Part shown: one piece after another, positions 2,098 to 44,371 of the stretch
Numbering within the stretch: position 1 is the stretch's first letter
How the letters are laid out: each line of letters begins with the position of its first letter
Notes under the pieces: model-generated
The model's input: only the letters and a program-made list of their open reading frames with translations
Databases searched by the model: none
Told to the model about the DNA's origin: nothing
Program-made: the position numbers and the translations under genes
Assembly: GCA_012837645.1 (NCBI GenBank)
Contig: DUQU01000043.1
Location: 1 to 64,000, forward strand
Origin: Acholeplasmataceae bacterium
GTDB taxonomy: Bacteria; Bacillota_I; Bacilli_A; Acholeplasmatales; UBA5453
Length of the DNA stretch: 64,000 bases
Reading direction: 5' to 3'

Positions 2098-3255
2098 ATG
2101 GAAAAAAGATTAGTGACTGCTGAATCAGTTTTAATGGGGCATCCGGATAAAGTGGCGGATCGAATTTCTGATGCAATTTTAGATGAAATATTAAGAAAAG
2201 ATAAAGAAGCGAGAGTGGCGATAGAAACTTTAGTTACTACTGGCCTTGTTTTCGTTAGTGGTGAAGTTGATACTGAAGCTTATTGTGATATTGAAAAAGT
2301 GGTAAGAGATACTGTTGAGGAAATTGGCTATACGAGAGGAAAATTCGGTTTTGATGCGGAAAACTTAGCTGTTATTTTAAGTATTCACAGTCAATCTCCA
2401 GATATTAAAAGAGGAGTGGTTAAAAAAGACGGCTCTATCGGAGCTGGAGATCAAGGTGTGATGTTTGGCTACGCTTGTGATGAAACTGAAAATTTGATGC
2501 CTTTAGCATTAGAGTTAGCGCAGCAATTAGCGAGAAGGATAGACTATTTAAGAAATACTAAAAAACTAACTTATTTAAGACCAGATGGTAAAGTTCAAGT
2601 TACTTTAGAATATGATAAAAAAGGAAAACCATTAAGAGCAGAAGGAATTGTTGTTTCTGTTCAACATCGTGAGATGGATTTAAAAGTTCTTAAAAAAGCA
2701 ATTAAAGAAGAAGTAATTGAAAAAGTAATTCCAAGTTATTTAATCGATCAAAAGACAAAAATATTTATTAATCCGACGGGAAGATTTGTAGTAGGAGGAC
2801 CAAAAGCAGATACAGGCTTAACGGGTCGAAAAATAATAGTCGATACTTATGGTGGCTTTGCTCATCACGGTGGGGGGGCGTTTTCTGGTAAAGATCCTTC
2901 TAAGGTTGACCGAAGCGCTAGCTATATGGCACGCTATTTGGCTAAAAACATTGTTAAAAGTAAACTAGCAAAAAAATGTGAAGTGGAACTCGCTTATATT
3001 ATCGGTGAGGAAGAACCGATTGGGGTAAATATTAATACCTTTAATACGGCATTAGTAGCCGAAGAACTAATTATTAAAACAATTAAAAAACACTTTAGTT
3101 TGACACCTAAAAGCATTATTGAGAGATTTAATTTAAGAACTCCAATTTATGAAAAAACTAGTTTTTATGGCCATATGGGAAGAGAAGATTTAAAGGTTGG
3201 TTGGGAAGAAGTAGATAGTGTCACTATTTTTGAAAAATTATTAAAAAGTAATTAA
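2098..3255 (+). CDS. metK: S-adenosylmethionine synthetase
   Basis: [61 protein letters not shown]; the ORF-track start at 2083 lies at the terminator U-tract, so ATG 2098 is preferred. Confidence 0.97.
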
Positions 3256-8902: not shown

Positions 8903-9070
8903 AATGTTTTTCCTCGCTTTCGTAATGACACATTAAATAATAATTGATTTAAAACAATTATAGCGCTTTTGTTAGTTTTTCGCAATCTAGCCAAAAAGAT
9001 AATTATTATTAAATAATTAGTTTCTCAGATGATAATCCTTTTGTGATATAATTACTAAGAGAGGTTGAAG

Positions 9071-10165
9071 ATGGATAAATACGAATTAAATAAATATTTA
9101 CAGTTATTTAAAAAGACTATTATAAATTTAAAAACATCACTCAATTTTGAGGTTTTAAAGCAGGAAGTTGAGGGCTTATTAAAACAACAATGGCAGGAAA
9201 ACTTTTGGGATAATGTTGAAGAAGCTCAAAAAATTATTAATGAAACTCAAGATAAAAAAGAGAAGGTTGACAAAATAATTGAGTTTGAAAAAAGCTTAAA
9301 TTCATTGCAGGAATTAGCGGATAGTTTAAAAGATGAAGAACTAAGGCTTTTGGCTGATGATGTGTTAAGTTTAGATAAAGAACTAAAATCTTTTATGGTT
9401 ATAACGCTTTATAATGGCCCTTATGATAAAAATAATTGTTTTTTAGAAATTCACCCTGGGGCGGGAGGAACTGAGTCTCAAGACTGGGGCGCGATGCTTT
9501 ATAGAATGTATTTAAGGTATGCTAGTAAAATGAAATATCAAGTTGAGGTTATTGATTATCAAGCTGGTGATGAAGCGGGAATCAAAAGCGTCGCTTTAAA
9601 AATTAAAGGCAAATATGCTTATGGCAATTTAAAAGGTGAAATGGGTGTACACCGCTTAGTGCGAATTTCTCCTTTTGATAGTAATAAAAGAAGACACACT
9701 AGTTTTGCTAGTGTTGAGGTGCTTCCTGAAATAAAAGAAGCGGTCAACCTTAATATTAATGAAGAAGAGTTAAAAATTGATGTTTATCGTTCAGGTGGTG
9801 CGGGAGGGCAATCAGTAAACACGACTGATAGCGCTGTGAGAGTAACTCATTTGCCGAGTGGCCTGGTTGTTACATGTCAAAATGAAAGAAGTCAACTGAA
9901 AAACAAAGAAACGGCCTTAAGCATTCTTAAAAATAAGCTTTTACAATTACAATTAAAAGAGCAACAAGAAAAGCTAGATAAATTAAAGGGTGACCAAAAA
10001 GAAATCGCTTGGGGTTCTCAAATTAGAAGTTATGTCTTCCATCCTTATCAAATGGTTAAAGACCATCGCACTAATGAAGAAACAAGTCAAGTTGAAGCGG
10101 TGATGGATGGAGAATTAGAAATATTTATTAATAGTTATTTGCGAGGTAATTATGGAAGTAGTTAA
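9071..10165 (+). CDS. prfB: Peptide chain release factor 2 (RF2), no internal frameshift
   Basis: GGAGGQSVNTTDSAVRVTHLPSG, HPGAGGTESQDWG; SPF-type motif ISPFDSNKRRHTSF; ATG at 9071, continuous frame. Confidence 0.95.
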   Translation: MDKYELNKYLQLFKKTIINLKTSLNFEVLKQEVEGLLKQQWQENFWDNVEEAQKIINETQDKKEKVDKIIEFEKSLNSLQELADSLKDEELRLLADDVLSLDKELKSFMVITLYNGPYDKNNCFLEIHPGAGGTESQDWGAMLYRMYLRYASKMKYQVEVIDYQAGDEAGIKSVALKIKGKYAYGNLKGEMGVHRLVRISPFDSNKRRHTSFASVEVLPEIKEAVNLNINEEELKIDVYRSGGAGGQSVNTTDSAVRVTHLPSGLVVTCQNERSQLKNKETALSILKNKLLQLQLKEQQEKLDKLKGDQKEIAWGSQIRSYVFHPYQMVKDHRTNEETSQVEAVMDGELEIFINSYLRGNYGSS

Positions 10166-42158: not shown

Positions 42159-42587
42159 ATGACAACAACAAGAATCTCGTTAAGTCGGAAGCTTAGTTGC
42201 TCTCTTGATCACTTTATTGAAAGTTTATTTGATTACCAGTTAATGAAAAATTACCAACAACCGCCTTTAATTAGTTATCAACTTGTTAAGGGAAACTTCT
42301 TAGAAGAAGGAGCGGTTGTTAAACTTTTTTATGATAATGAGAAAACAAAAGTAATTACCGAAACCATTATTAAAAATAATTTGCCTAAGGAAATAATAAT
42401 TGAACAAAAATATTTTCATGTTTTAGTAATAATTAAGCATCGATTTAACAATAATATTTGGTTTGTAGATTATCAGTTTATTACTACTACTAAAAAAACA
42501 ATCGATAAAGAAGGTTTAGCTAAGCAATTAGAAGAAGATATGGAAGGTTTTTTAAAGTACTATGATAAGATTAGCAAACTTAAATGA
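42159..42587 (+). CDS. Hypothetical protein, possible SRPBCC/START-like fold
   Basis: Intact ORF between zip and GNAT genes; general pattern only. Confidence 0.45.
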   Translation: MTTTRISLSRKLSCSLDHFIESLFDYQLMKNYQQPPLISYQLVKGNFLEEGAVVKLFYDNEKTKVITETIIKNNLPKEIIIEQKYFHVLVIIKHRFNNNIWFVDYQFITTTKKTIDKEGLAKQLEEDMEGFLKYYDKISKLK

Positions 42588-43056
42588 TTTAAAAGCGATT
42601 ATTAGTATTTATCAGGAAGCTAAAGTAAGGATGAAAGCTGCGCAAATCAAGCAGTGGGAGGGTGATTATCCTAATCAAAAGTTACTTGAAGAAGATATTT
42701 TGGGAGGTCATTTATTCGTTTTTGTGAGCGCTCATTTAGTGGTGGGAGTAATGGCCGTTTTTAAAGAAGAAATCACTTATCAAAATATTATTGGCAGTTG
42801 GCTCAACGATAAGCCATACCGTGTTATTCACCGAATCGCTGTTAAAGAAGGATATACTAACCAAGGCATCGCTTTAAAAATGTTAGATTTTGTTTTAAAT
42901 CACTACCAGCAAGATCTTAAAATAGATACTCATCCTGATAACATTCCGATGCAAAAACTTTTAAAAAAAGCGCAATTTGTTTATTGCGGTAAGACGTATA
43001 TCGGACCTAAAAGTAATGATTTGAGGTGGTGTTATCAAAAACTATATCAAGAATAA
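42562..43056 (+). CDS. GNAT family N-acetyltransferase
   Basis: VIHRIAVKEGYTNQGIALKMLDFV, IDTHPDNIPMQKLLKKAQFVYCG. Confidence 0.88.
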   Translation: MIRLANLNDLKAIISIYQEAKVRMKAAQIKQWEGDYPNQKLLEEDILGGHLFVFVSAHLVVGVMAVFKEEITYQNIIGSWLNDKPYRVIHRIAVKEGYTNQGIALKMLDFVLNHYQQDLKIDTHPDNIPMQKLLKKAQFVYCGKTYIGPKSNDLRWCYQKLYQE

Positions 43057-44137
43057 TTATAATAAAAACAATCTTGTTAATCTTTCTAATTCAATCTTAA
43101 AATATTACGGGATTGAAACTTTTCATCCGACTTTAACTGGTTTGGATGAAGTTTTAAAAACTAATTATCCCCACCTGGTTTTAATTTTAATCGATGGGAT
43201 GGGAGTTAATATTTTAAAGCAGCATTTAGATTCTAATGCACTTTTAAACAAACACTATAAAAGGGCTTTAAATACTGTTTTTCCACCGACAACAGTGGCG
43301 GCGACCACTGCTTTATTAAGTGCGAAAACACCCTATGAAACTGGGTTTTTAGGTTGGACTCAATATAACAAAAATGCTAACGTAACTGAAACGCTCTTTT
43401 TGGAAGAAGAAACAATAACTAAAACGAAAGTTAGTAATTCTTTATTAAAACAACTAAATTATCAAAGCATTATTGATAAAATAAAAACTAAACATCCAGA
43501 GATGCAAGTTGAAAAATTGGCGATCAAGCCGCTTTTTAATTGCGATTTTGAAACTTTTTCCGAGCAGCTCAATAGGGCTTTAATGAATACTTTTTCCCAG
43601 CAGAGTTTTACTTATCTTTATTATCCCTTATTAGATACTTTATTACATAGTGTCGGAACTAAAGATTTAAAAGTTAGCCAACATTTAAAAGATATCAATA
43701 ATGATTATGAAAAGTTTATCGATGAAATTGCCGATGATGTCTTAGTACTAACAACCGCCGATCATGGTTTTGTTGATGTGGAAATTATCAATCTTTCATA
43801 TTATCCCAAATTAACCAAACTTTTAAAAAGGGCACCATCGATTGAAAGTAGGAGTATGACGTTTTTTGTAAAAAGCCTTTATAAAAGAAAATTTAAAACA
43901 CTTTTTAAGAAATATTTTAATGAGGACTTTAATTTATATAGTAAAAAGGAAGTAAAAAGGTTAAAACTATTTGGGAAAGGAAAAAAGCATCCCCTCTTTG
44001 AAAGTTTTTTAGGCGATTTTTTGGCTGTTGCTAAAACTAATAAAGCCTTTTCGCTAAAAAACGATAATGGTTTAAAAGCCCAACATGGTGGTGGTCTTTT
44101 AGAAGAGTTTTTAATTCCTTTAATAATAAACAAATAA
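43034..44137 (+). CDS. Alkaline phosphatase superfamily phosphodiesterase/nucleotide pyrophosphatase-like protein; probable AUC start
   Basis: LVLILIDGMGVNIL, TVFPPTTVAATTALLSAKTPYETGFLGW, TADHGFVDV; frame is open to 43025 (TGA at 43022-43024) with RBS aggtg at 43024-43028 before ATC 43034. Confidence 0.7.
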   Translation: MKNYIKNNYNKNNLVNLSNSILKYYGIETFHPTLTGLDEVLKTNYPHLVLILIDGMGVNILKQHLDSNALLNKHYKRALNTVFPPTTVAATTALLSAKTPYETGFLGWTQYNKNANVTETLFLEEETITKTKVSNSLLKQLNYQSIIDKIKTKHPEMQVEKLAIKPLFNCDFETFSEQLNRALMNTFSQQSFTYLYYPLLDTLLHSVGTKDLKVSQHLKDINNDYEKFIDEIADDVLVLTTADHGFVDVEIINLSYYPKLTKLLKRAPSIESRSMTFFVKSLYKRKFKTLFKKYFNEDFNLYSKKEVKRLKLFGKGKKHPLFESFLGDFLAVAKTNKAFSLKNDNGLKAQHGGGLLEEFLIPLIINK

Positions 44138-44176: not shown

Positions 44177-44371
44177 ATGGCTTGGCATGATGAAACGTAT
44201 ATTATTGGCGAAAAAGTGCAAGTAAAAAACGAAAAAGAAATGGGAGTTGTAACGAGAATTGATCAGGAAAGAGATTTAGTTTTCGTGCAATTTAAACGGA
44301 TGAGAGAAGAGTCTTATCCTTATCCAGAAGCTTTTGAACAAGGTTACTTAGTTATGAAAATAAACAAATAA
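44177..44371 (+). CDS. Small conserved hypothetical protein, possible SH3-like barrel
   Basis: 64 aa, promoter TATAAT and RBS (gaaggtgat) upstream, terminator downstream. Confidence 0.6.
   Translation: MAWHDETYIIGEKVQVKNEKEMGVVTRIDQERDLVFVQFKRMREESYPYPEAFEQGYLVMKINK

Follow-up and report, generated by a model that had tools for sequence, protein, structure and literature searches.

The present analysis indicates that a normal phosphodiesterase gene of the PF01663 family is likely to be initiated at an AUC codon (position 43034) and that this change of start codon is specific to its lineage. The gene was found in a window, i.e., the whole stretch of DNA that was analyzed, of 64,000 nucleotides (G+C content of 31.6%), which belongs to a genome of 1.27 Mb available as a draft of 65 contigs. 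Its open frame extends from 43025 to 44137 on the forward strand, opening just after an in-frame TGA and ending with a TAA (44135-44137). A previous sequence-only reading had placed this TGA at 43022-43024, a GTT at 43031, the ATC at 43034, the first TTG at 43142 and the stop codon of the upstream GNAT gene at 43056; re-reading of the sequence confirmed all these positions (TAA 43054-43056 for the GNAT gene) as well as the lack of any ATG, GTG or TTG in the frame between the TGA and the TTG. The Shine-Dalgarno sequence (SD) that it proposed, AGGTG (43024-43028), is indeed present but was delimited too narrowly, since the full motif is GAGGTG (43023-43028). Furthermore, it overlooked an ATG at 43016, which is in the same frame and is separated from the TGA by a single ATT codon. 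The features are listed in Table 1.

Table 1. Features of the phosphodiesterase gene and of its initiation region
Feature	Position	Strand	Remarks
Phosphodiesterase/nucleotide pyrophosphatase-like gene (PF01663)	43034..44137	+	367 codons and stop, read from ATC 43034
Probable AUC initiation codon	43034..43036	+	GAGGTG at spacing 7; parallels with ATC of infC in the family
Shine-Dalgarno sequence GAGGTG	43023..43028	+	Perfect 6-mer of the standard anti-SD complement; inside the GNAT gene
In-frame TGA closing the phosphodiesterase frame upstream	43022..43024	+	Read from the sequence; prfB in the window
Conserved N-terminal segment NNYNKNNLVNLSNSILKYYGIETFHPTLTG, upstream of TTG	43052..43141	+	Alignment A1; residues 11-36 with pLDDT of about 97
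TTG, first canonical start codon, rejected as start	43142..43144	+	No SD; would delete conserved residues
GNAT acetyltransferase gene (PF00583, E = 9.3e-7), 23-nt overlap with the phosphodiesterase start	42562..43056	+	YQK motif kept through the overlap

The N-terminus encoded upstream of the first canonical start codon

Among 160 genomes from the order, 81 (this one and 80 others) possess the phosphodiesterase gene. For nearly all of its full-length homologues, the alignment with the query begins between residues 2 and 16. In an alignment of 31 phosphodiesterases (A1), residues Y9, S13, N16, L22 and Y25, all located upstream of residue 37 (encoded by TTG 43142), are conserved in at least 90% of the sequences. 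The AlphaFold2 model (mean pLDDT of 94.5) includes a helix at residues 14-24 within the confidently predicted segment 11-36, and only residues 1-10 are of low confidence. Homologue alignment, conserved residues and folded model thus agree with the earlier proposal of a genuine N-terminal domain, and the homologues align upstream of the LDEV motif rather than beginning there. Judging from this comparison and from the predicted fold, the peptide encoded upstream of TTG 43142 is genuine. Since the conserved residues and the folded segment lie upstream of TTG 43142, the start that automatic gene callers would assign to this codon is wrong and has practically no chance of being the real one. No other canonical start codon precedes this TTG in the frame, but its use would remove the five conserved residues and the predicted helix, the homologues all begin upstream, and its best SD match is an ATCC at a spacing of 19. 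Callers that consider only ATG, GTG and TTG would cut 36 residues off this protein or drop the gene.

Choice of the initiation codon

In all 75 other homologues whose start was read, one of the canonical codons ATG, GTG and TTG precedes the (P)NY/DY motif (a contig end truncates L118), and a start is therefore expected in the N-terminal region. The candidates preceding this motif are ATC 43034, ATC 43046 and, less likely, GTT 43031. In 65 genes of this genome whose SD is 6 nt or longer, the most frequent spacing, measured from the end of GGAGG, is 7-8 nt; ATC 43034, at 7 nt from GAGGTG, is thus a near-cognate codon behind a strong SD at proper spacing. The adjacent GTT 43031, which had been put forward as another possible start, is disfavored: lying 3 nt nearer the SD than the ATC, it is separated from the SD core by only 4 nt, and it has two mismatches to AUG. 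Initiation at another near-cognate codon, chiefly ATC 43046, is improbable. This second ATC is nearer the N-terminus of the homologue from the same genus (MVNY...), the G001 homologue begins three residues before the conserved Tyr, and the low confidence of residues 1-10 in the model also speaks for it, but ATC 43046 is located 19 nt from the SD.

Stretches of 39 codons devoid of ATG, GTG and TTG are not rare, as they amount to 23% inside the genes of the window. Among the in-frame ATT, ATC and ATA codons inside genes, 0.8% carry such an SD (6 nt, modal spacing), and a random SD match for the two candidate codons would be expected in about 1.6% of cases. The present situation goes beyond chance because the 36 skipped codons encode a conserved N-terminus and are accompanied by a 6-nt SD located at modal spacing in front of an ATN codon. 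In a survey of 139 ORFs from a sample of about 161 kb of this genome, the phosphodiesterase gene was the only one (1/139) in which an ATN codon with SD support stands upstream of a canonical start and takes its place. The predicted RNA structure around the start is unremarkable (z = 0.70), and the 16S 3′ end of this genome, which would have allowed the anti-SD to be read directly, was not found with the pattern used. A modal-spacing SD combined with a conserved N-terminus can flag non-canonical starts from sequence alone.

Parallels with infC and with other AUN starts

The infC gene of the same genome (L086 469-486, G000:C44) has no ATG start and carries an ATT behind GAGGTGA at a spacing of 8. 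Across the order, the infC start varies: most genomes have ATT, several have ATA, and three members of the family have ATC, with three loci giving no clear answer and all starts being assigned on the basis of the sequence. The SDs are nearly always of the GGAGGTG or AAGGAG type, at a spacing of 7-8. This lineage thus apparently uses AUN starts for infC. In the three genomes with an ATC (G008, G011 and G004), this codon follows AGGAGGTGG[AC]GTTT (full context AGGAGGTGG[AC]GTTTATCAAG) and precedes AAG, so that the local sequence is almost the same as at the phosphodiesterase gene (AGGAGGTGGCGTTTATCAAG for infC compared to TGAGGTGGTGTTATCAAA). In both genes, a near-cognate AUN codon is located 7-8 nt behind a strong SD. 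However, the non-canonical start of infC, which is autoregulatory in E. coli, is conserved, whereas that of the phosphodiesterase gene is found in one lineage only and concerns an enzyme without known link to IF3. Since ATC 43034 is the best-placed codon by SD spacing and has infC precedents in the genome and in the family, the AUC start advanced in the sequence-only reading is supported; it is not proven, since a one-base sequence error is conceivable.

Near-cognate starts have been identified in Staphylococcus aureus for infC (AUA), cvfC1 (AUU), ccpN (AUA) and citZ (AUA), with an extended SD at infC, cvfC1 and ccpN (PMC13009471). The AUU and AUA starts gave about 10% of the AUG expression, and up to 30% for ccpN in rich medium (PMC13009471). 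The citZ, ccpN and cvfC1 genes are Bacillota genes other than infC that have near-cognate starts, and the AUA of citZ, restricted to the NCTC 8325 lineage, is lineage-specific like the AUC reported here (PMC13009471). However, the S. aureus starts were demonstrated by retapamulin profiling and reporters (PMC13009471), whereas that of the phosphodiesterase gene is predicted from the sequence and involves AUC. AUC, AUU and AUA were also found among the rare starts in a study of Mycobacterium tuberculosis (PMC9094748). Our literature search for AUC starts in bacteria retrieved just one AUC start-codon mutant and passing mentions; bacterial AUC starts outside infC are rarely documented. The start of the phosphodiesterase gene would add to an already known type of non-canonical initiation at AUN codons.

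Proposed mechanism and overlap with the GNAT gene

A strong SD that holds the mRNA lets the initiator tRNA use near-cognate AUN codons, against which IF3 discriminates. At the phosphodiesterase gene, the strong GAGGTG located near the 3′ end of the GNAT gene would guide initiation, and the initiator tRNA would read AUC 43034 and place Met first. By extrapolation from the AUU and AUA measurements in S. aureus, expression of the enzyme may be low and sensitive to IF3; we infer the actual use of the AUC, this low yield and any coupling with the GNAT gene.

The SD is contained in the final 34 nt of the GNAT gene. Translational coupling to this gene had been suggested, and the overlap on which the suggestion was based does exist; with its 23 nt, however, it differs from the much shorter overlaps, of the -4/-1 type, in which coupling has been documented (PMC10666635). 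Neither a short overlap (-4 or -1) nor a very short distance, as expected for termination-reinitiation, was thus found, and in view of the length of the overlap, coupling is no more than a possibility. It is unlikely, although somewhat conceivable, that the AUC is a fixed and selected down-regulating device placing the phosphodiesterase under the control of IF3 and making it dependent on GNAT translation through the buried SD.

Alternative origins of the non-canonical start

If the sequence or its assembly were in error, or if the contig represented a rare variant among strains, the true codon of the population at 43034 would be ATG or another canonical start, and one base of the contig, at 43036, would be wrong. 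An error had already been envisaged, including an indel; the latter is unlikely and would be confined to about a dozen bases, since the conserved C-terminal motif R-x-x-Y-Q/H-K is preserved in the GNAT frame through 43024-43041 and the phosphodiesterase frame is correct at NNY (43052-43060). A single substitution at 43036 stays plausible at a low level: ATC is one base from ATG (G-to-C at 43036), the homologues all have canonical starts, the genome is a 65-contig draft and the corresponding GNAT codon is Glu (GAA) in some relatives. However, the GNAT codon that begins with C43036 is CAA (Gln), which is common at this place in GNAT relatives, and Gln or His is usual in the closest ones; these residues led us to reject the argument that a GAA would restore both an ATG and a conserved GNAT residue. 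Furthermore, consensus errors are rare in such assemblies and an ATN start is apparently used for infC in the same genome. We therefore regard such an error as unlikely; this estimate was not measured but reflects our view that non-canonical starts are more frequent than consensus errors.

Among the homologues examined, only this gene has a non-canonical start. Conservation of the start codon in relatives, which would support AUN initiation without strictly defining it, was thus not observed, and conservation gives the AUC itself no support since the other homologues never use a non-canonical start. Searches for a second strain of the species found none, the genus providing only one relative with 44% identity; the viral contigs contained none either, and a single scan of genome contigs gave a distant relative only. 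The uniqueness of this start and the absence of the homologue from many members of the order could also be expected if the start had recently been lost and the gene were being silenced. This start-loss pseudogene is quite improbable, given that the frame of 367 codons is otherwise intact, with the catalytic positions that are invariant in A1, and that the strong SD is still there at ideal spacing.

The N-terminus could finally derive from the GNAT frame by ribosomal frameshifting, as had been proposed, or from ATG 43016 by readthrough of the TGA. The two frames do overlap at 43025-43053 and a single codon stands between this ATG and the TGA, but there is no slippery heptamer (only five A after a C), GNAT and phosphodiesterase are separate genes in relatives, often far apart, nothing points to a fusion of the two, and ATG 43016 has no good SD. 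Frameshifting is thus unsupported, and either route is extremely improbable. A prfB gene exceeds the cut-off in the window (9107-10144), and the TGA is therefore a stop codon, recoding being excluded. Genetic code 4 (TGA read as Trp) was ruled out by the presence of prfB; a TGA also ends a gene at 42587. The 368 codons of prfB (9059-10165) follow one another in one frame without interruption, so that this gene apparently lacks the usual programmed +1 frameshift.

The enzyme and its homologues

The protein, when read from AUC 43034, matches PF01663 with an E-value of 3.7e-17 (63.4 bits for a curated cut-off of 23). It shares with this ENPP-like family the catalytic motifs LIDGMG, FPPTT, D201/H205, TADHG and H351. 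Residues D54, T86/T87, D201, H205, D243, H244 and H351, which we take to be the metal and nucleophile residues of the family, are invariant in A1 (n = 31). Since the positions expected for catalysis are among the invariant residues, the protein is probably an active enzyme. By sequence and fold comparison, the nearest solved folds are ENPP6, ENPP5 and ENPP4, and phosphonoacetate hydrolase is also among the matches, all with 11-16% identity. Compared to these solved members, the protein has an additional (P)NYxxSILNVS segment before the Pfam domain, which is common to its relatives in the order.

The only named relative found with the protein is Candidatus Ventrenecus avicola, from which we deduce that the genome probably belongs to the Bacilli. 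In the Candidatus Ventrenecus homologue (L033 3001-4082), the frame stops at 3219 whereas tblastn matches run to 4082, indicating a frameshifted or misassembled gene. Another homologue (G053:C1:6443-7534) contains one TGA and one TAG and is likely a pseudogene. The homologues of another family of the order (L023, L025 and L027-L031) are extended at the N-terminus by about 80 additional residues. Directly downstream of the phosphodiesterase gene, 44177-44371 encodes a protein of 64 residues (MAWHDETYIIGEKVQV...) that has no Pfam or NCBIfam match.
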